Shown piece by piece: positions 13,971 to 23,411 of a stretch of 64,000 nucleotides of DNA. Made by a program: the position numbers and the translations under genes. The stretch lies in the NCBI RefSeq assembly GCF_001592305.1, contig NZ_BCWR01000006.1:310001-374000 (forward strand), read 5' to 3'. Every line of letters starts with the position of its first letter. The first letter of the stretch is position 1. Below the pieces are notes generated by a model, which saw nothing but the letters and a program-made list of their open reading frames with translations, ran no database searches and was not told where the DNA came from. The DNA comes from Hydrogenophaga taeniospiralis CCUG 15921. Lineage in GTDB: Bacteria; Pseudomonadota; Gammaproteobacteria; Burkholderiales; Burkholderiaceae_C.

Positions 13971-15410
13971 TCAGGCGAGCTCGCCAGCGGAGCGCAAATC
14001 GTCGAGCGTGGCGTCCAGGCAGCGCACGATCAGCGCCATCATTTCGTCGATCTGCGCGTGCGTCATCACCAGCGGCGGCGCGATGATCATGCGGTCGCCC
14101 ACGGCGCGCATGATCAGCCCGTTCTTGAAGCAGTGGCCCCGGCAGATCATGCCCACGCCCAGGTCGGCATCGAACATCGCGTTCGTGGCCTTGTTCTTCA
14201 CCAGCACCAGGCCGGCAACGAAGCCGCAGGTCTCGGCGCCGCCCACCAGCGGGTGGTCCTTGAGTTCGGCGAAGCGCCGGGCCAGGTAAGGGCCGGTGTC
14301 GTCCTTCACCCGGCCCACCAGGTTCTCGCGCTCCATCAGCTCCAGGTTGGCCAGTGCCACCGCGCAGGCCACCGGGTGGCCGCTGTAGGTGTAGCCGTGG
14401 TTGAACTCGCCGCCCTTTTCGATCAGCACCCGGGCCACGCGGTCGCCCACCATCACGCCGCCGAGCGGGATGTAGCCACTGGTCACGCCTTTGGCGAAGG
14501 TCACCAGGTCGGGCCGGTAGCCGAACTTCTCGTAGGCGAACCAGTGGCCCAGGCGGCCGAAGGCGCAGATCACCTCGTCGGAAATCAGCAGGATGCCGTA
14601 CTGGTCGACGATGCGCTGGATCTCGGGCCAGTAGGTTTCGGGCGGGATGATCACGCCGCCCGCGCCCTGCACCGGCTCGGCGATGAAGGCCGCCACCTTG
14701 TCGGCGCCCACTTCCAGAATCTTCGCTTCCAGCCAGCCCGCGGCGCGGCGGCCGAAGTCGGCCTCGCTCTCGCCGGGCCGCGCGTTCTCGAAGAAGTACG
14801 GCTGCTCGATGTGCGTGATGTTGGGAATGGGCAGGTCGCCCTGCGCGTGCATGCCGCCCATGCCACCCAGCGAGGCACCCGCCATGGTGCTGCCGTGGTA
14901 GGCGTTGTTGCGGCTGATGATCACCTTGCGCTGCGGCTGGCCCAGCAGGTCCCAGTAGCGGCGCACCATGCGCACGTTGGTGTCGTTGCTTTCGCTGCCG
15001 CTGCTGCTGAAAAAGACATGTTCAAAGCTGCGCCCGCCGACCTTGGGCGCCAGCGAGGCGAGCTTGGTCGCCAGTTGCACCGCCGGCACATTGGTGGTGT
15101 TGAAGAAGCTGTTGTAGAACGGCAGCGTCATCATCTGCTGGTAGGCGGCGTCGGCCAGCTCCTTGCGGCCGTAGCCCGCGTTCACGCACCACAGCCCACT
15201 CATCGCGTCCAGGATCTTCGCGCCCTCGGAGTCCCACACGTAGATGTTGTCGGCCCGCGTGATCACGCGCGCGCCACGCGAGGCCAGACCCGCGTGGTCG
15301 GTGAACGGGTGCAGGTAGTGCGCGCTGTCCAGCGCCTGGATGGCTTTCGTGTCCTGCTGCTCGGCGCGGCGAACCAGGGCAGGCGGGGCGATGAGGGTTG
15401 AGGGGTTCAT
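13971..15410 (-). CDS. spuC: Putrescine-pyruvate-type aminotransferase
   Basis: This class III PLP aminotransferase has 479 residues. Visible motifs are FFSSSGSESNDTNVRM (cofactor phosphate site), YHGSTMAG, LLISDEVICAFGRLG (Asp and Arg around the ring) and TFAKGVTSGYIPLGG (Schiff-base Lys). The overall sequence resembles SpuC and omega-transaminases that move the amino group of putrescine or cadaverine to pyruvate. It lies between the polyamine transporter and a PuuA/SpuB-like ligase, matching the Pseudomonas spu gene content. The reaction would give 4-aminobutyraldehyde for the PuuC-like dehydrogenase. A beta-alanine-pyruvate aminotransferase role is the main alternative. Confidence 0.85.
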   Translation of the reverse strand: MNPSTLIAPPALVRRAEQQDTKAIQALDSAHYLHPFTDHAGLASRGARVITRADNIYVWDSEGAKILDAMSGLWCVNAGYGRKELADAAYQQMMTLPFYNSFFNTTNVPAVQLATKLASLAPKVGGRSFEHVFFSSSGSESNDTNVRMVRRYWDLLGQPQRKVIISRNNAYHGSTMAGASLGGMGGMHAQGDLPIPNITHIEQPYFFENARPGESEADFGRRAAGWLEAKILEVGADKVAAFIAEPVQGAGGVIIPPETYWPEIQRIVDQYGILLISDEVICAFGRLGHWFAYEKFGYRPDLVTFAKGVTSGYIPLGGVMVGDRVARVLIEKGGEFNHGYTYSGHPVACAVALANLELMERENLVGRVKDDTGPYLARRFAELKDHPLVGGAETCGFVAGLVLVKNKATNAMFDADLGVGMICRGHCFKNGLIMRAVGDRMIIAPPLVMTHAQIDEMMALIVRCLDATLDDLRSAGELA

Positions 15411-15432
15411 GGTCGGTCCTTGGATGGCGTGT

Positions 15433-16803
15433 TCAAACGTGCAGCAACAAATGTTCGCGTTCCCACGGCGAAATCACCTTCATGAACTCGTCGAACTCCA
15501 GTTCCTTGATCTCGGTGTAGATGGTGATGAACTCCTTGCCCAGCACCTCGTGCAGGTCGGGTTCGCGGCGCAGCCAGTCCAGCGCTTCGCCCAGCGAGCG
15601 CGGCAGCGAGTACGGCGCCAGGTAGGCGTCGCCCTTCATCTCGGGCTTGGGCTTGATCTTGTTCTTCATGCCCAGGTAGCCGCAGGCCAGCGTCATGGCC
15701 ATGGCCACGTAGGGGTTGGCGTCGGCACCGATCACGCGGTTCTCCACCCGACGCGCGGCCGGGCTGGAGATCGGCGAGCGGATGCCCACCGTGCGGTTGT
15801 CGTGGCCCCACTCGATGTTGATCGGCGCGGCCGTGTGGCGCGAGAGGCGGCGGTAGCTGTTCACGTAGGGCGCCACCAGCACCATGGCCGCCGGGATGTA
15901 GCGCTGCAGGCCGCCGATGTAGTGGTAGAAGGACTCGGAGGCCGTGCCGTCCTCGTTGCTGAAGATGTTCTTGCCGGTGGCCTTGTCCAGGATGCTCTGG
16001 TGCACGTGCATGGCGCTGCCGGGCTCGCCCGCGATGGGCTTGGCCATGAAGGTGGCGTACATGTCGTGGCGCAGCGCGGCTTCGCGCACGGTGCGCTTGA
16101 AGAAGAACACCTCGTCGGCCAGGCCCAGCGGGTGGGCATGGAAGAAGTTGATCTCCATCTGCCCCGCGCCCACCTCGTGGATCAGCGTGTCCACGTTGAG
16201 CTCCATCTTGTCGCAGTAGTCGTAGATCTCCTCGAACAGCGGGTCGAATTCGTTCACCGCGTCGATGCTGTAGGCCTGACGCGAGGTTTCGGCGCGGCCG
16301 CTGCGGCCGATCGGCGGCTTGAGCAGTGTGTTCGGGTCGGTGTTGCGCGCGGTCAGGTAGAACTCCAGCTCGGGCGCCACCACCGGCTCCCAGCCCTCGG
16401 CCGCGTACAGGTCGCAGATGCGGCGCAGCACGCTGCGCGGCGCGAAGGGCACCAGCTTGCCGTGGTGGTCAAAGCAGTCGTGGATCACCTGCGCGGTGGG
16501 GTCGGTGGCCCAGGGCACGATGCGCACCGTGGTCGGGTCCGGGCGCAGCTGCATGTCCTTGTCGGTCGGGTCCACCACGTCGTAGTACGGCCCGCTCTCA
16601 GGGAACTCGCCCGTCACCCCCATGCCCACGATGGCCTGGGGCAGGCGCATGCCGCGGTCTTCGGTGAACTTCTCGCGCGGCAGGATCTTGCCGCGCGCCA
16701 CCCCGGTCAGGTCGGGCACCAGGCATTCGACCTCGGTCACGCGGTGCTCGTTGAGCCAGTTCTCCAGATCGTTGAAGCTGTTGACTTTTTGGGAGGCTGT
16801 CAT
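15433..16803 (-). CDS. puuA: Gamma-glutamylpolyamine synthetase (PuuA/SpuB-like)
   Basis: The 456-residue glutamine-synthetase homologue keeps the core motifs: ELEFYLTARN, AGQMEINFFHAH, PGSAMHVHQSI, and NRTVGIRSPISS with RRVENRV. It starts with ENWLNEHRVTEVECLVPDLTG, typical of PuuA/SpuB rather than GlnA. These enzymes couple glutamate to putrescine or spermidine using ATP. The gene lies 22 bp upstream of spuC and 58 bp downstream of the puuD-like hydrolase, all on one strand, so one transcript is likely. It is clearly different from the GS-like protein at 2597, so the island has two such ligases, perhaps with different amine preferences. Confidence 0.87.
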   Translation of the reverse strand: MTASQKVNSFNDLENWLNEHRVTEVECLVPDLTGVARGKILPREKFTEDRGMRLPQAIVGMGVTGEFPESGPYYDVVDPTDKDMQLRPDPTTVRIVPWATDPTAQVIHDCFDHHGKLVPFAPRSVLRRICDLYAAEGWEPVVAPELEFYLTARNTDPNTLLKPPIGRSGRAETSRQAYSIDAVNEFDPLFEEIYDYCDKMELNVDTLIHEVGAGQMEINFFHAHPLGLADEVFFFKRTVREAALRHDMYATFMAKPIAGEPGSAMHVHQSILDKATGKNIFSNEDGTASESFYHYIGGLQRYIPAAMVLVAPYVNSYRRLSRHTAAPINIEWGHDNRTVGIRSPISSPAARRVENRVIGADANPYVAMAMTLACGYLGMKNKIKPKPEMKGDAYLAPYSLPRSLGEALDWLRREPDLHEVLGKEFITIYTEIKELEFDEFMKVISPWEREHLLLHV

Positions 16804-16861
16804 GTGCCGGTTCCTTGTCGGTTCGAGGGGTTGTGCCGGATATGGGAATGCAGGGCAGGTT

Positions 16862-17671
16862 TCAGGCGCCGATGGTGGCGCGGCTGCGGGCCAGGTCGGC
16901 GGCCTGCAGGCGCAGGCTCTGGCGGGACCGGCAGGCGCGACCGAATTCCTCGAAGATCGCGGCGTAGAACGGGGTCTCCCAGCAGCGCCATTCGGGGTGG
17001 AACTGCACCGCGTAGGCGAAGGTGCGCGCGCCCTTCACGGCAAACGCCTCCACCACCCCGTCGGGCGCGTGGGCCATGGCCTGCAAACCGCTGGCCAGCC
17101 GGTTGATGCCCTGGCCGTGCAGCGAGTTCACCATCGTCTCGGGGCCGCCGGCCCAGGTCTCGAAGATGCTGCCGGGCTCGAAACGGATCGGGTGGCTCGG
17201 CGCGTACTGTTCTTCAAAGGGCGCGGTCTTGGGCTCGCGGTGGTCCATCAGGCCGGGCACCTCGTGCACACGCTGGTGCAGGGTGCCACCCAGCGCCACG
17301 TTGATCTCCTGAAAGCCCCGGCACACGCCCAGCAGCGGCACGCCCTCGTGCACACAGGCTTTCACCAGCGCCAGCGTGAGCGTGTCGCGCTCCAGGTCCA
17401 GCGGCAGGCTGGGGTCGGCCACGTCTTCGTCGAAATGCGAGGGGTGCACGTTGGAGGGCGAGCCGGTCAGCATCACGCCGTCCACCAGGGACAGCAGTTC
17501 GGGAATCTGTTCGGCGTCGGCCAGCGGGAACATGACCGGCTGGGCCTGCGCGCCGACCTTGACGGCGCGGGCGTATTTGTCGCCCAGCAGCAGGAAAGGC
17601 ATCTGGTGCCCGTGGTCGCCCATGAGGCGGTGGTCGGCAGGCAGCCAGACCATGCAAGGCGGTTGGTTCAT
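16862..17671 (-). CDS. puuD: Gamma-glutamyl-GABA hydrolase (class I amidotransferase fold)
   Basis: The 269-residue protein has the glutaminase triad: nucleophile in LLGVCRGFQEINVALGG and His-Glu in QFHPEW. MLTGSPSNVHPSHFDE near residue 70 matches PuuD/SpuA. Its expected reaction is release of GABA from gamma-glutamyl-GABA, the last step of the gamma-glutamyl route. The start at 17671 is chosen because GGAGACACC precedes it; an ATG five codons upstream would bury that site. As the first gene before puuA and spuC it probably carries the promoter, which faces the MocR-type regulator across a 226-bp gap. Confidence 0.9.
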   Translation of the reverse strand: MNQPPCMVWLPADHRLMGDHGHQMPFLLLGDKYARAVKVGAQAQPVMFPLADAEQIPELLSLVDGVMLTGSPSNVHPSHFDEDVADPSLPLDLERDTLTLALVKACVHEGVPLLGVCRGFQEINVALGGTLHQRVHEVPGLMDHREPKTAPFEEQYAPSHPIRFEPGSIFETWAGGPETMVNSLHGQGINRLASGLQAMAHAPDGVVEAFAVKGARTFAYAVQFHPEWRCWETPFYAAIFEEFGRACRSRQSLRLQAADLARSRATIGA

Positions 17672-17812
17672 GGTGTCTCCAAACACGAAGTTTGATTCTG
17701 ACCCGTAAATTGGATCACAATCAGGGCCAGTTCACACCACCTTATGGTGCCATTTCTTTACCCGAACCCGCCAACCCGCACCACCAGCTTTGAGGGGCAT
17801 CCAGGATCCGGC
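17672..17812. promoter_or_regulatory. Divergent control region between puuD and the MocR-type regulator
   Basis: The part next to puuD is AT-richer than its surroundings. It contains AATTGGATC (17708-17716), which recurs in inverted orientation at 23408-23416 upstream of agmatinase, and a small palindrome ATGGTGCCAT (17744-17753). GabR/MocR proteins bind such divergent regions and regulate both themselves and the metabolic operon. No clear -35/-10 pair could be fixed. Confidence 0.35.
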
Positions 17813-17887
17813 TCCGCCGGTCCGAGATGCCGCCCCCCTCCCGCCGAAGGCGAGAGAGGGGGGTGACGCGAAGCGGCGCGGGGGGTG
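17813..17887 (-). repeat. GC-rich palindromic repeat, copy 5
   Basis: It has the same outer blocks as the other copies (GGATCCGGCTCCGCCGG at one end, GTGACGCGAAGCGGCGCGG at the other) but a longer central stem with a CCGCCGAAGGCG interior. It ends 10 bp before the regulator's ATG, in the 5' leader, rather than beside a stop codon. It could shield the ribosome site. Confidence 0.7.
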
Positions 17888-17897
17888 CTTGCTGCCC

Positions 17898-19409
17898 ATG
17901 CTGTCTGAATTCCTGCTGACCGAGATGAACCGCCTGGGCGCGCAAGACGCCCTGCCCCTGCACCGCCAGCTCTACGAGGCACTGCGCCGCGCCATGCTCG
18001 ACGGCAAGCTGGGTGCGGGCGAGCGCCTGCCCTCCAGCCGCGACCTGGCGCAGGACCTCGGGCTCTCGCGCAACACGGTAGTGGCGGCGATCAACCAGCT
18101 CAGCGTCGAGGGTTACCTGGCCAGCCGGGTCGGCAGCGGCACCTATGTGAACGAGAGCGTGCCCCGCGCCCTGCCCGGGCGCGCCACCCGCCGGCCGGGC
18201 GCCCCGGGCGGCAACGGCAGCGTGCCCACTGGCCGCCTCTCGACGCGCGGGCTGGCGCTGTCCACCACCTTCTGCGCCACCGAGCTCGAAGTCCAGCCCT
18301 TCACCCCCGGCATCGCCGACTTCAGCGCCTTCCCGCTCACGCTCTGGCAGCGCCTGCAGAACAAGCACTGGCGCATGACCTACCCGGACATGCTGGACTA
18401 CAACGACTCCGGCGGCTACGCGCCGCTGCGCCGGGCCATTGCCGACTACCTGCGCGTGTTCCGCAGCGTGCAGCTCGACGCCGACCAAGTCATCGTCACC
18501 ACCGGCACCCAGCAGTCGCTCGAACTCTGCGCCCGCCTGCTGGCCGACCACGGCGACACCGTGTGGGTGGAAGACCCGGCCTACTGGGGCGCGGTCAAGG
18601 CCTTCATGGCCACCGGCCTGGCCATCCACCCCGTGCCGGTGGACGACGAAGGCATCCATCCCGGCACAGCCGACGACGCGCACCCGCCCAAACTGATCTA
18701 CCTCACGCCTTCGCACCAGTACCCCACCGGCGCGGTGATGAGCCTGCCGCGGCGCCACCAGTTGCTGTCCACCGCGCGCGCCCACGGCGCCTGGGTGCTG
18801 GAGGACGACTACGACAGCGAATACCGCTTTTCCGGCCCGCCCATCTCCAGCCTCGAAGGCCTGGACAACGACGGCCGCGTGTTCTACATGGGCACCTTCT
18901 CCAAGGTGCTCTACCCCGGCATCAAGCTCGGCTACCTCATCGCGCCCCGGCCGCTGGCGGCGGCCTTCAAGCAGGCGCACTACGACCTCAACCGCCCGGG
19001 CCAGATGCCGCTGCAGGCCGCGCTGGCCGAGTTCATCGAGATGGGCCACTTCAGCAGCGCGCTGCGCCGCGCGCGGCAGAACTACGGCGAGCGCCGCGCC
19101 GCGCTGCTCGACGCGCTCAAACCCGTGCTCGCTCCCGGCACCGAAGGCCCGTTCATCAGCGGCGCCGAACAGGGCCTGCACCTGTGCCTGCGCCTGCCCG
19201 CCACGGTGGACGACGCCGCGCTCGCCCAGCGCATCGCCCAGCAGGGCCTGACCGTGCGCCCGCTCTCGGCCTACTGCCTGGCGCGCCACGACCTCAAGGG
19301 CCTGGTGATCGGCTACGGCTACGCGCCGCTGCGCGAGATCCAGCGCTGCGGGCCGGTGCTGGCTGCGGCGGTGCGGCAGGCCCTGGGCACCCTCCCCGCC
19401 GAGCACTGA
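17898..19409 (+). CDS. MocR/GabR-type regulator (GntR HTH fused to aminotransferase fold)
   Basis: The 503-residue protein has an N-terminal GntR winged helix (about residues 16-85, with LPSSRDLAQDLGLSRNTVV as HTH). A linker leads to a fold-type I aminotransferase domain. TPSHQYPTGAVMS and GTFSKVLYPGIKLGYL carry the PLP-binding Asp region and lysine. MocR-family members sense PLP adducts of amines or pyridoxal; GabR activates GABA catabolism. Its place, divergent from puuD-puuA-spuC, points to control of polyamine/GABA genes; PdxR-like control of vitamin B6 is the alternative. The ATG at 17898 excludes the upstream repeat, which is open in frame but not protein-like. Confidence 0.87.
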   Translation: MLSEFLLTEMNRLGAQDALPLHRQLYEALRRAMLDGKLGAGERLPSSRDLAQDLGLSRNTVVAAINQLSVEGYLASRVGSGTYVNESVPRALPGRATRRPGAPGGNGSVPTGRLSTRGLALSTTFCATELEVQPFTPGIADFSAFPLTLWQRLQNKHWRMTYPDMLDYNDSGGYAPLRRAIADYLRVFRSVQLDADQVIVTTGTQQSLELCARLLADHGDTVWVEDPAYWGAVKAFMATGLAIHPVPVDDEGIHPGTADDAHPPKLIYLTPSHQYPTGAVMSLPRRHQLLSTARAHGAWVLEDDYDSEYRFSGPPISSLEGLDNDGRVFYMGTFSKVLYPGIKLGYLIAPRPLAAAFKQAHYDLNRPGQMPLQAALAEFIEMGHFSSALRRARQNYGERRAALLDALKPVLAPGTEGPFISGAEQGLHLCLRLPATVDDAALAQRIAQQGLTVRPLSAYCLARHDLKGLVIGYGYAPLREIQRCGPVLAAAVRQALGTLPAEH

Positions 19410-19503
19410 CGCTCCCCGCAAAACCGGGGGCGTACGCCAGCGCACAGACCCCGGCGCCGGGGCGGCGCAGGCTCTGGGGTGACAACCCTTCTGGAGACAC
19501 CTC

Positions 19504-20940
19504 ATGACTTCCTTTCCAAGCACCCTGCTGGCCGTGGCCGGTATGGCCTTCAGCGCCCAGGCGGCCGCCCAGGCCACCTTCTACGAACACCCGGATTTCG
19601 GCGGCCGGTCCGTGCGAGCGAACCAGGAAATCAGCCGGTTCGACCGCTACAGCTTCAACGACCGCACCTCGTCCGTGGTGATCGTCGGCAACCGCTGGGA
19701 GGTCTGTGAGCACGTCGGTTTCCAGGGCCGCTGCGTGGTGCTGCGCCCGGGCGAATACCCCTCGCTCGCCGACATGGGCCTGAACGACCGCGTCTCCTCG
19801 GCGCGCGTCATCGCCCGCAACGCCCGCGTGGACGACGACCGCTACGCGCCGTTGCCTGGGCCATTGCCGGCCGCCACGCAGGTCACGTTCTATGAGCGCG
19901 AAGGTTTCGACGGCCGCTCCTTCACCACCACCGGCGCCATCCCCAACTTCCGCCGCTACGGTTTCAACGACCGCGCCTCGTCGGCCGTGGTGGTCGGCGA
20001 ACGCTGGGAGGTCTGCGACGACAACCGCTACCGCGGTCGCTGCGTCGTGCTGCGCCCCGGGCGCTACCCGTCGCTCGAAGCGATGGGCCTGGACGACGAA
20101 GTCAGCTCGGTGCGCACCGTGCCGCGCAACGTGCGCATCCGCGACGACCGCTACGCCCCACCGCTCGAGGCCGCACCGGACGACGACGGCCAGATCACAT
20201 TCTTCGGACGTGAGGGCTTCCAGGGCCGCTCCTTCACCACGGAAGAAGCCGTCGCCAACCTGGAGCGGGCCGGCTTCAACGACCGAGCCACCTCGGCGAT
20301 CGTGATCGGTGAACGCTGGGAGGTCTGCAACGACACCCGGTTCAGCGGGCGCTGCGTCGTGCTGCGTCCCGGGGGCTACCCGTCGCTCGAAGCCATGGGC
20401 ATGAACGACCGCATCTCATCCGTGCGCACCGTCGAAGGCCGCGGCCGCATCGACAACGACCGCTACGCGCCACCGCCACCGGCGGCGGTCTACGACGGCC
20501 GGCGTCGCCAGGGCGAGCGGCTCTTCGAAGCCCCGGTCACGTCCGTGCGGGCCGTGCTCGCCACCTCCGGTCAGCGCTGCTGGGTCGAGCGTGAGCAGGT
20601 CCAGAGCCAGGGCGGCAACAACGCCAACGTGCCTGCGGCCCTGGCAGGCGCCCTCATCGGCGGCATCCTGGGCCACCAGGTGGGCGGCGGCACCGGCAAG
20701 GACATCGCCACCGTGGGTGGGGTGATCGCGGGTGCCGCGCTCGGTGCACAGGTCGGTCGCGACGGACAGCCCGCCACGCAGGACGTGCGGCGCTGCGAAG
20801 ACACCCCCGGCGGCGCGCAGCCCGCGTTCTGGGACGTGTCCTACAACTTCCGCGGCCAGGACCACCGCGTCCAGATGGCCATGGACCCGGGCAACACCGT
20901 CACGGTGAACGAACGGGGCGAGCCGCGCCAGCAGCAGTGA
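19504..20940 (+). CDS. Secreted triple beta/gamma-crystallin protein with glycine-zipper tail
   Basis: This 478-residue protein has a signal peptide (about 1-23, cleaved near AQAAAQA). Three beta/gamma-crystallin domains follow at about 24-105, 126-205 and 230-310. Each has two Greek-key motifs ending in Ca2+-site sequences of the NDRxSS type (FNDRTSS, LNDRVSS, FNDRASS, LDDEVSS, FNDRATS, MNDRISS). After a Pro-rich linker, residues 378-418 form a glycine-zipper 2TM segment (ALAGALIGGILGHQVGG then GGVIAGAALGAQVG), as in SlyB/RcnB-like outer-membrane proteins. Calcium binding and envelope location are inferred. GGAG stands 8-9 nt before the ATG. The combination looks like an internally duplicated stress protein. 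Confidence 0.85.
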   Translation: MTSFPSTLLAVAGMAFSAQAAAQATFYEHPDFGGRSVRANQEISRFDRYSFNDRTSSVVIVGNRWEVCEHVGFQGRCVVLRPGEYPSLADMGLNDRVSSARVIARNARVDDDRYAPLPGPLPAATQVTFYEREGFDGRSFTTTGAIPNFRRYGFNDRASSAVVVGERWEVCDDNRYRGRCVVLRPGRYPSLEAMGLDDEVSSVRTVPRNVRIRDDRYAPPLEAAPDDDGQITFFGREGFQGRSFTTEEAVANLERAGFNDRATSAIVIGERWEVCNDTRFSGRCVVLRPGGYPSLEAMGMNDRISSVRTVEGRGRIDNDRYAPPPPAAVYDGRRRQGERLFEAPVTSVRAVLATSGQRCWVEREQVQSQGGNNANVPAALAGALIGGILGHQVGGGTGKDIATVGGVIAGAALGAQVGRDGQPATQDVRRCEDTPGGAQPAFWDVSYNFRGQDHRVQMAMDPGNTVTVNERGEPRQQQ

Positions 20941-20969
20941 CACTTTGAGGGCCGATGGCCCTCAAAGTG
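20941..20969. terminator. Bidirectional stem-loop between convergent genes
   Basis: CACTTTGAGGGCC (20941-20953) and GGCCCTCAAAGTG (20957-20969) form a perfect 13-bp stem with a 3-nt loop. It begins one base after the crystallin stop and overlaps the last codons and stop of the puuB-like gene on the other strand. There is no long T-run, so termination strength is uncertain. Confidence 0.7.
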
Positions 20970-22272
20970 CGTCGCGCAAGCGGTACCACAGCATGCCCAG
21001 CGCCAGGCTCGGCGTGCGCAGCAGCGGCCCGCCGGGAAAGGCGTGGTGCTTCAGGCGGGCGAACACGTCAAAGCGCCCGGCCTGCCCCGCCACGGCCTCG
21101 GCCACCAGCCGACCGGCCAGCCCGGTGAGCGCCACGCCGTGGCCGCTGAAGCCCTGCAGGTAATAGAGGTTGTCGCCTAGCCGGCCGAAGTCGGGCGCGC
21201 GGTTCATGCTGATGTCCACGAAACCACCCCAGACGAACTCGACCGGCACGCCCTGGAGCGCCGGGAACACCGCACCCATGCGCCGCGCCATCACACCTTG
21301 GAGGTCGGGCGGCGTCATGGTGGTGTAGCTCACGCGCCCGCCGAAGAGCATGCGGTGGTCGGCGCTGAAGCGGAAGTAGTCGAGCACGAAGTTGTTGTCG
21401 CAGACCGCCGCGTTGTGCGCGATCAGGCGCTCGCACAGGGCCGGGTCCAGCGGCGCGGTGCCGATGATGTAGGTGCCCACCGGCATGATGCGCGGCGCGA
21501 TCTCGGGGGCCACCTGCGGGCCGTGTTCGGGCAGCATGCAGTTGCCCGCCAGCACACCGAAACGCGCCCTCACCTGCCCGCCGGCGGTGCTCGCCACCAG
21601 CGTGGCGCCACGCTGCAGGCCGGTCACCGGCGAGCCCTCAAACATGCGCACCCCCGCGGCCTGGGCGGCGCGCGCCAGACCCAGCGCGTACTTCAGCGGG
21701 TGCAGGTGGCCCGAGCGCTGCTCGTGGAACGCGGCCACGTAGCGCGGGCTGTCGACGAAGCGCGCCACCTCGTCACCCTCGGCCCAGGCGCAGGGCACAC
21801 CGCGCCGGTGGTGGTCGTCGCATTCCTCGCGCAGCGCGCGCGCCTTCTTCGCCGTCTCGGCCACGTAGGTGTAGCCGCGCTGCCAGTCGCAGCCGATCCC
21901 GTGCTCGGCGATACGCTGCTCGATCAGCTCCACCGCCTCGACCGACATGTCCCAGGCGCGCTGCGCATCGGCCGCGCCCAGCTGCTGCTCGAACGGCGCC
22001 TGCCCGCTCGCGTAGCCCACGATGGCCTGCCCGCCGTTGCGCCCGCTCGCGCCCGAGCCGATGCGGTCGGCCTCCAGCAGCACCACCGACAGGCCCCGCT
22101 GCGCCAGCTCCAGCGCCGCGCTCAGGCCCGCGAAGCCGCCACCGACCACCACCACGTCGGCCACCACCGTGCCCTGCAGCGGCGGGCAGGGCGCGGGCCG
22201 GTCGACGCTGGCCTCGTAATAGCTGGTCTGGTTGAGCTGGGTGTCGGAGCCGAGCAGGGAACGGGCGAACAT
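20962..22272 (-). CDS. puuB: Gamma-glutamylputrescine oxidase-like FAD enzyme
   Basis: The 436-residue oxidoreductase of the DAO/GlpD fold has the dinucleotide motif VVVVGGGFAGLSAALEL near residues 38-54, the ARNG-type flavin segment SGRNGGQ, and the C-terminal GFSGHGVALTGLAG that closes the FAD site. PuuB oxidises gamma-glutamylputrescine to the aldehyde with H2O2 formation. It is transcribed toward the crystallin gene and lies downstream of agmatinase on the same strand, a repeat between them. The start at 22272 matches the family opening (SYYEAS-DRP region about 20 residues in). Related oxidases of other amines cannot be excluded. Confidence 0.85.
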   Translation of the reverse strand: MFARSLLGSDTQLNQTSYYEASVDRPAPCPPLQGTVVADVVVVGGGFAGLSAALELAQRGLSVVLLEADRIGSGASGRNGGQAIVGYASGQAPFEQQLGAADAQRAWDMSVEAVELIEQRIAEHGIGCDWQRGYTYVAETAKKARALREECDDHHRRGVPCAWAEGDEVARFVDSPRYVAAFHEQRSGHLHPLKYALGLARAAQAAGVRMFEGSPVTGLQRGATLVASTAGGQVRARFGVLAGNCMLPEHGPQVAPEIAPRIMPVGTYIIGTAPLDPALCERLIAHNAAVCDNNFVLDYFRFSADHRMLFGGRVSYTTMTPPDLQGVMARRMGAVFPALQGVPVEFVWGGFVDISMNRAPDFGRLGDNLYYLQGFSGHGVALTGLAGRLVAEAVAGQAGRFDVFARLKHHAFPGGPLLRTPSLALGMLWYRLRDAL

Positions 22273-22337
22273 GTCAAAAGACCCTCGTGTGAATGAAGGA
22301 CCCACATGCCGAAAGCATGCCTGCCACCAGGGCACCC

Positions 22338-22420
22338 GTGGAACCGGCTTCGCCGGGCCACAGGGTGCGTTCCCCCTCCCGCAGGAGAGGGGGGAAGACG
22401 CGCAGCGGCGCAGGGGGGTG
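22338..22420 (-). repeat. Stop-proximal GC-rich palindromic repeat, copy 6
   Basis: It starts two bases after the agmatinase stop (22423) and runs toward puuB. It has the shared GTGGAACCGGCTTCGCCGG end and a central stem enlarged by CTCCCGCAGGAGAG. The block normally reading GACGCGAAGCGGCGC is GACGCGCAGCGGCGC here. Confidence 0.75.
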
Positions 22421-22422
22421 CT

Positions 22423-23340
22423 TCATCTCTTCGCGATTTGACCGCAGAGGTAGGCCCACACGAAGGTGGCGGCCGCGTTGGTCGTCAGCTCGGCGTGATC
22501 GTAGGCCGGCGCCACCTCGACGCAGTCCATGCCAATCCAGTTCAGATCGGCCAGCTCTTCGATGAAGCTCAGCACCTGCGAACTGCTGAGGCCGCCGGGC
22601 TCGGGCGTGCCGGTGCCGGGTGCAAAGGCCGGGTCCAGCACGTCAATGTCCAACGTCAGGTAACAGGGCCGCTGGCCGATGCGCGCGCGGATCGCGTCGA
22701 TCGTGGGCCTCAGCCCGGCGCCGTCGAGCCCGCGCAGCGCGCGCGCCGTGAAGATCTGCCCGCCCTGGTCGGCCACGTACTCGCGCGCGGCGCGCACGCC
22801 GGGGGAGCGGATACCGATCTGCACCGTGTGTTCGGCGCTGATCAGGCCCTCCTGGATCGCTTCATAAGTCCAGGTGCCGTGGCCCGAGGGTTCGCCGAAA
22901 TGGTCGGTCCAGGTGTCGCAGTGCGCGTCGAAATGCACGCAGGCCAGGGGCTCGCCATGTTTCGCACGGGCGGCGCGCAGCAGCGACAGCGTGACCGAGT
23001 GGTCGCCGCCGAGGAAGACGCAGTGGTGCTTCGCCATCAGCTCGGCCGCCTGCCGCTCGATGTGCGCACGCACCTCGGGCAGCGGCGAGGCGTTGGGCAG
23101 GCGCATGTCCAGCGCATCGCCCAGGTGGCCCAGCGGCGACACGTCGAACACCGGGTGGATGCCGTCGCACAGCATCAGGCTGGCCGCGCGGATCGCCTGC
23201 GGGCCGAAACGCGCCCCCGGTCGGTGCGTCACCACGCCGTCGAACGGCACACCGGCCACGGCAAAGGGCTGCGCGCCCAGCTCGGGCGCCCCCAGAAAAC
23301 GGTTGGTGTTGTTGGCGTAGGCAAACTGTCCCGTGGCCAT
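22423..23340 (-). CDS. speB: Agmatinase (ureohydrolase)
   Basis: The 305-residue ureohydrolase has all Mn2+ ligands: GGDHSVT, HFDAHCDTW and DIDVLDPAFAPGTGTPEPGG. The last segment matches agmatinase rather than arginase. The expected reaction is agmatine to putrescine plus urea. The start at 23340 follows AAGGACCCAC, a good ribosome site; 13 more codons are open upstream but overlap the promoter. With the puu/spu genes on the same strand it supplies putrescine from arginine-derived agmatine. No arginine decarboxylase gene lies in the window. The promoter contains a perfect 21-bp palindrome. Confidence 0.93.
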   Translation of the reverse strand: MATGQFAYANNTNRFLGAPELGAQPFAVAGVPFDGVVTHRPGARFGPQAIRAASLMLCDGIHPVFDVSPLGHLGDALDMRLPNASPLPEVRAHIERQAAELMAKHHCVFLGGDHSVTLSLLRAARAKHGEPLACVHFDAHCDTWTDHFGEPSGHGTWTYEAIQEGLISAEHTVQIGIRSPGVRAAREYVADQGGQIFTARALRGLDGAGLRPTIDAIRARIGQRPCYLTLDIDVLDPAFAPGTGTPEPGGLSSSQVLSFIEELADLNWIGMDCVEVAPAYDHAELTTNAAATFVWAYLCGQIAKR

Positions 23341-23367
23341 GTGGGTCCTTGCTGTGGCGATGCTGGA

Positions 23368-23411
23368 AAGTGGAACCATAAGATATCAACGATCCATCGC
23401 ATCGATGGATC
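23368..23411 (-). promoter_or_regulatory. speB control region with a perfect operator-like palindrome
   Basis: GATCCATCG (23391-23399), CAT, CGATGGATC (23403-23411) form a perfect 9+3+9 inverted repeat 51 bp upstream of the speB ATG. Between it and the gene lies GGTTCCACTTT (minus strand, 23368-23378), nearly the same as the element next to puuC. The palindrome is a good candidate operator for a dimeric regulator. Confidence 0.5.

Follow-up and report, generated by a model that had tools for sequence, protein, structure and literature searches.

A predicted exported protein carrying three β/γ-crystallin domains on a YcfJ-type module in Hydrogenophaga taeniospiralis, and the element upstream of its gene

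The window analysed here, a 64,000-nucleotide stretch of contig NZ_BCWR01000006.1 of Hydrogenophaga taeniospiralis CCUG 15921, carries on its plus strand, at positions 19504–20940, a gene for a protein of 478 residues that we delineated from its open reading frame and Pfam matches; all features below lie on the same strand unless stated. By eye, residues 1–22 (19504–19569) form a probable Sec signal peptide, cleaved after AAA and before QATFYEH, and a by-eye comparison places it at the same position in relatives. The n-region, MTSFPSTLL (19504–19530), is without a basic residue; most relatives have a lysine or arginine there, again by eye. Three β/γ-crystallin domains follow, each supported by PF00030 and by an AlphaFold2 model: the first at 19570–19812 (motifs NDRTSS and NDRVSS, 77.3 bits), the second at 19879–20121 (NDRASS and DDEVSS, 78.5 bits) and the third at 20191–20433 (NDRATS and NDRISS, 75.3 bits). 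Comparison of the DNA with itself resolves the same region into three 300-nt repeat units (19570–20490), each a crystallin domain plus its linker, spaced 309 and 312 nt apart and with 69% and 74% identity to the middle unit. The remainder, 20488–20937, is a YcfJ-type module with conserved RCW and RC cysteines (hhalign, AlphaFold2), within which residues 379–418 (20638–20757) constitute a 2TM glycine zipper that matches PF05433 (26.3 bits; cut-off 24.2) and also SlyB (7ojf). Directly downstream, at 20941–20969 and between convergent genes, we found by eye a perfect inverted repeat (no strand assigned) with 13-nt arms and no T-run; the terminator scan returned no intrinsic terminator, and no sigma-70-like promoter was listed. 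The first-pass annotation, made from the letters alone, had described a triple crystallin fused to a 2TM glycine zipper behind a signal peptide, an arrangement that Pfam confirms and, for the signal peptide, inspection by eye.

Around the gene, positions 13971–23379 hold genes for a class III aminotransferase, a glutamine-synthetase-like protein, a C26 amidotransferase, a GntR/aminotransferase regulator, an FAD oxidoreductase and an arginase-family protein, which together look like a polyamine catabolism cluster with the crystallin gene inside. The order mocR, crystallin-YcfJ gene, FAD oxidoreductase recurs in Hydrogenophaga. We rejected these neighbours as a functional clue in this genus, as mocR and the oxidoreductase look like metabolic genes with no relation to the fusion. 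Beside the fused gene in other genera lie sensor kinases and a REC-only regulator, to which we gave no weight because the first cluster of 19 loci consisted largely of antisense ORFs overlapping the gene.

The crystallin assignment is strong. PF00030 scores 219 bits over the whole protein, in three stretches (curated cut-off 25), and its only three matches in the genome at E ≤ 0.001 all lie inside this gene, at 19573–19812, 19879–20121 and 20191–20433. The AlphaFold2 model of the full protein places the crystallin domains mostly at pLDDT 80–95, the linkers at 61–67 and the poorly modelled zipper below 50; its pTM is 0.45, and the relative placement of the domains is therefore left unfixed. In a fold search with this model, all 50 listed matches of 163 were lens crystallins or their derivatives. 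The domains also match PF03995 (61.6 bits, cut-off 21.1), and so does every one of 59 relatives at E no higher than 0.01, which raises the alternative that the modules act like I36 metalloproteinase inhibitors. However, these matches fall on the same residues as those of PF00030, whose score of 219 bits is far higher, and we consider such a role highly improbable.

Crystallin Ca2+ motifs follow the rule N/D-N/D-x-x-S/T-S, with two motifs per domain. Read from the sequence, all six motifs of the protein fit, in line with the NDxxSS-type motifs described at the outset. Among 171 domains of fused proteins, the first motif is kept in 142, the second in 122 and both in 112, with neither in 19; at least one domain with both motifs occurs in 79 of 102 fused proteins, and four of the 102 have none. 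In 40 crystallin domains that lack a YcfJ part, the first motif is kept in 27 and the second in 24. What such motifs suggest is Ca2+ binding only; the calcium response that the first-pass annotation proposed would be a further step. Two cysteines nine residues apart are present in every crystallin domain, fused or not (211 of 211), which points to a disulfide within a hairpin and to residence in an oxidising compartment.

We built a profile of the C-terminal part, A3, from 58 sequences. Against E. coli YcfJ it aligned by hhalign over 127 columns (probability 99.3, E 1.4e-20), with both cysteine positions inside the alignment, and over 148 columns (E 1.9e-64) against a lipoprotein encoded in the same genome that has no crystallin domain. 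Against SlyB it aligned over 50 columns of the zipper only (probability 98.1, E 1.1e-13), and the SlyB structure 7ojf likewise aligns at the zipper (E 5.2e-9). Because the likeness to YcfJ and the lipoprotein reaches beyond the zipper while that to SlyB stops there, the protein is, as judged by sequence, a YcfJ-type protein with a crystallin head; membership in the SlyB family was rejected on the same grounds. The glycine zipper named in the first-pass annotation thus stands, but as one element of a wider C-terminal part. All of 59 relatives match PF05433 at E up to 0.01, and the NCBI equivalog model PRK11280 (NF008437) scores 67.6 bits, under its curated cut-off of 99. Modelled alone by AlphaFold2 (mean pLDDT 67.9), the module consists of two strands, the glycine zipper and four strands; the fold search with this part gave no match at E ≤ 0.001, the best being E 1.9.

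The zipper alignment bears on a second alternative, in which a zipper ring, as in SlyB, would enclose outer-membrane proteins while the crystallin modules sense the loss of divalent cations. According to PMC13067283, a shortage of divalent cations induces SlyB through PhoPQ, and SlyB forms rings; the match to SlyB and 7ojf would suit a similar guard. That match is confined to the 50 zipper columns, though, with the rest YcfJ-type, and by eye there is no cysteine at the end of the signal peptide, hence no lipobox; nor did we see a typical lipobox by eye in 80 named crystallin forms. We judge this alternative decidedly improbable.

Of the 397 genomes in the GTDB family of the window, 79 have PF00030, spread over 40 of 126 genera. 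We inspected 74 of these 79 genomes, not always at every match, and found the fusion in one open frame in 64; the other ten had only crystallin ORFs without the YcfJ part, among them L083, which a contig end truncates. Across the order, 26 of 399 genomes in eight families match over its full length the query A1, which comprises one crystallin domain and the YcfJ part. In a class-wide sample the full-length fusion was found in 3 of 370 genomes, two of them of the same genus as the window; some A1 match occurred in 209 of the 370, and among the matches listed the others were a YcfJ-type part or a zipper. All 80 named loci that we kept are fused, a sample biased toward the fusion because it comprises the best 80 of 426; these 80 divide into Burkholderiales (57), Rhodocyclales (4), Nitrosomonadales (3), Neisseriales (1), Accumulibacter (1) and unplaced sequences (14). 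The five best-scoring of the named loci comprise four from Hydrogenophaga and one from a MAG labelled Gammaproteobacteria. The genome counts contradict the earlier description of an uncommon domain set: we rejected it within the family and the order, and the architecture is rare outside them. Widespread though the architecture is in both, no assigned function emerged from the open-licence literature searched, and no paper on a crystallin-YcfJ fusion was found among the matches listed there. Sequence comparison indicates a real, conserved family, frequent in the order, that is a new combination of two known kinds of protein.

Two observations stand apart from this pattern. Outside the order of the window, locus L210 (G773:C50:11240-11980) holds a one-module fusion very close to the Burkholderiales forms, which may reflect transfer or contamination of a draft genome. 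Five loci (L029, L032, L121, L123 and L126) encode arrays of three or four crystallin domains that are more divergent and lack the YcfJ part, and the fusion is also present in three of their genomes.

The number of crystallin modules varies among relatives. With six duplicates excluded, the loci analysed yield 102 fused ORFs, of which 55 have one module, 27 two, 18 three and 2 four, and 15 crystallin ORFs that lack the YcfJ part; contig ends truncate ORFs at L010, L083, L100 and L120, and some loci were picked by similarity to the crystallin-YcfJ protein. Among the named loci, where the best 80 of 426 were kept, 30 have one module, 32 two, 17 three and 1 four. Mapped on a quick tree of the YcfJ part, in which 44 of 99 inner branches are open, module number changes at least 19 times over 102 rows, against a shuffled mean of 42.3. 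In Hydrogenophaga the gene is mostly at one locus, yet has two or three modules. Compared with L005, L015 has modules 1 and 2 at 98% and 93% and no counterpart of module 3; L016 and L006 show the same relation at 85% and 76%. In another genus, L111 matches modules 1 and 3 of L112 at 98% and 94%, but nothing in it corresponds to the middle module. One unit gives way to the next in the linker in L015 and L016, and at the first codons of a module in L111. These comparisons show that module number changes by whole in-frame units; this fits recombination between repeats, although the linker before the YcfJ part would resemble that of the last unit anyway.

Change counts alone cannot separate gain of modules from loss. 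In a domain tree (81 columns, 59 rows, 23 of 55 inner branches open), crystallin domains mostly cluster by their position in the array, also across species. This grouping lends moderate support to loss in Hydrogenophaga and makes the triplication look old, and we rejected a recent triplication for the same reason. The internal duplication proposed at the outset is borne out, as an event that looks old and whose copy number varies among relatives.

Variable module number would also suit an adhesin or matrix protein, in which an outward-facing crystallin array binds a glycan or surface in a Ca2+-dependent manner and the YcfJ module is only an anchor. YcfJ-type proteins are not known to be surface-exposed, which counts against this reading, and our searches with the crystallin-YcfJ protein found no glycan-binding or surface-sorting feature. 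In comparisons with five relatives, dN/dS was 0.19–0.38 for the crystallin part and 0.14–0.31 for the C-terminal part, higher for the former in four of the five, as an adhesin might lead one to expect. PMC9501238 reports that E. coli ycfJ is needed for biofilm, the mutant being deficient in its formation, which again would suit an adhesin. On balance we regard an adhesin as unlikely.

Upstream of the gene, 54 nt before the start codon, lies the element GTACGCCAGCGCACAGAC (19432–19449, plus strand), a CRP/FNR-like palindrome followed by GAC. Its general form, GTRYGNCANCGYACAGAC, which we term type A, has what we take to be the shape of a CRP/FNR-family operator. The k-mer CGCACAGA, which belongs to this form, occurs in 32 of 143 non-redundant upstream regions of fused genes, against 0.4 expected. 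In the window this site is the sole exact match; four others have three mismatches, giving five sites at that stringency against 5.53 expected by chance. The whole genome has five exact sites and eight more with one mismatch, 13 in all; the reversed pattern gives none. Exact sites number 79 in 32 of 60 genomes of the genus (reversed control, 1) and 34 in 21 of 120 genomes of the family (reversed control, 0). By coordinate comparison, 17 of the 18 clade genomes that hold the fused gene have an exact site ahead of it, the exception being G004. A relaxed form, shaped on the same sequences in which it was counted, precedes 52 of 143 fused genes, against none reversed. An RpoE-like promoter was rejected, with 1 of 143 upstream regions against 1.24 expected. 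At family level exact sites occur, counted by hand, in 11 of 27 genomes that bear PF00030 and in 10 of 93 others, so that the tie between element and fusion is loose there.

A second element accompanies other members of the family. The k-mer GTAGGACA was found in 28 of 143 upstream regions against 0.3 expected, and forms part of the pattern GTAGGACA-N3..5-CTACG, often with GTCCG[AC]TG about 15 nt later. The pattern (GTAGGAC...CTACG) lies upstream of 34 of 143 fused genes, among them those at L201, L111, L009 and L183, with 3 in the reversed control and 1.0 in shuffled sequence. In the genome of the window it is not enriched, with 29 sites at up to two mismatches against 120 for the reversed pattern. 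The two Hydrogenophaga genes at another locus carry the second element; over the 143 upstream regions, two have both elements and 59 have neither.

Many of the genes that follow type-A sites in the same genome are envelope or osmotic stress genes. The full set includes the crystallin-YcfJ gene, a YcfJ-type lipoprotein, a BON lipoprotein, an MlaE permease, a transglycosylase-domain protein, a PAS histidine kinase, a Crp-family regulator and an 85-residue ORF without a family; such sites also stand before metabolic genes, which encode a phosphoglucomutase, an FMN reductase and a short-chain dehydrogenase. Divergent from the YcfJ-type lipoprotein, and likewise after a site, is a 2861-residue frame with GH94 domains, of the cyclic-glucan synthase type, which has a Crp-family gene beside it. 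One site, at C5:425120, has no convincing same-strand gene after it, and an exported-looking ORF lies on the opposite strand. A 15-kb stretch of one contig holds five of the 13 sites; OmpA-type and hemerythrin genes there have weaker ones, at two mismatches and counted without a control. The island there (L287, G000:C11:53000-72900), marked by the palindromic element, holds two Crp-family regulators, OmpA, hemerythrin, the GH94 protein, the YcfJ-type lipoprotein, the PAS kinase and the BON lipoprotein.

Across the genus we examined the 30 of 79 sites for which loci were given. Seventeen precede relatives of the partners above: BON proteins (9), the crystallin-YcfJ gene (4), the lipoprotein (2), the FMN reductase (1) and MlaE (1). 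The other 13 have no recognised downstream partner, two of them with a Crp or dehydrogenase gene on the other side. In the 60 genus genomes, sites and YcfJ-type genes (E < 1e-40) occur together in 29, sites only in 3, the gene only in 4 and neither in 24; for Crp-like genes (E < 1e-60) the corresponding counts are 29, 3, 8 and 20. Both cut-offs were picked after the data were seen, and the tables ignore relatedness, so that co-occurrence within the genus is confounded by kinship. Since, in addition, many genomes have several Crp-family paralogues, a Crp-family protein is only a candidate regulator of the type-A sites.

Taken together, these data lead us to favour, with little more than even confidence, an exported Ca2+-binding crystallin array on a YcfJ-type tether that forms part of an envelope-stress regulon. 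A cleaved Sec signal would send the protein to the periplasm, where the three modules, each with two Ca2+ motifs and a cysteine pair, would fold and bind Ca2+. The YcfJ-type module with its 2TM glycine zipper would tether the protein in a membrane, most likely the outer one, and the zipper would probably oligomerise it there. Through the observed CRP/FNR-like palindrome, a putative regulator would co-control the gene with others, among them many envelope or osmotic stress genes. On this reading a stress-induced YcfJ-type anchor would carry the array as its head, which would be stabilised by Ca2+, vary in length and give the envelope more bulk or binding surface under stress. Three features support the envelope location proposed by the first-pass annotation: the probable signal for export, the YcfJ-type module and the genes that share the promoter element. 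We speculate further that a betaproteobacterial Crp/Fnr-type regulator reads TGTRYG-N4-CGCACAGAC-like sites and that its envelope-stress regulon, as yet undescribed, includes a family of Ca2+-binding crystallin rods on YcfJ-type anchors, their length set by the gain and loss of whole modules, a proposal that we hold to be doubtful; if true, the envelope would gain a Ca2+-gated, length-adjustable scaffold, periplasmic or at the surface. Confidence in both the favoured reading and this proposal is lowered because the family-level tie is loose and some partners are metabolic.

Within Betaproteobacteria the fusion is frequent, and in this clade it is linked to a promoter element that can be defined. 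Of the new leads, this type-A element, which predicts the genes that are made together, is the most useful. Forms with one, two, three and four modules occur naturally, and a single locus can even carry either two or three; the fusion gives YcfJ/UmoD proteins and bacterial crystallins a shared place for testing. We know of no physiological role for most bacterial crystallins, nor of an agreed mechanism for YcfJ/UmoD proteins, which are stress-related.

Among known systems, the crystallin domains resemble in fold the microbial Ca2+-binding β/γ-crystallins, with a match to 3hz2, which we take to be M-crystallin, at E 6.7e-9. Of the exported Yersinia crystallin ypo2884, an excerpt of PMC5650977 relates that both crystallin domains bind Ca2+; unlike in our protein, a membrane module goes unmentioned in that excerpt. 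SlyB shares the glycine zipper hairpin; however, it is a lipoprotein, and outside the zipper hhalign found no similarity. A Burkholderia low-oxygen locus with BON, α-crystallin and CRP-family proteins, as given in part of PMC6127331, is a loose parallel only to the partners of the type-A element. Within the same genome, lipoprotein L024 (G000:C11:66740) shares the C-terminal module and has a type-A element with one mismatch 66 nt upstream of its start, but it lacks the crystallin domain and has, by eye, a lipobox, LAGC, where the crystallin form has a plain signal peptide. In Proteus mirabilis, umoD is under Rcs regulation (PMC8470065), and in E. coli, according to an excerpt of PMC9501238, ycfJ is upregulated under five stressors. 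With this E. coli YcfJ/Proteus UmoD family (PF05433) the protein shares the zipper, its flanks and both cysteine positions; YcfJ itself, at 179 residues, has no crystallin domains, in contrast to the crystallin-YcfJ protein described here.
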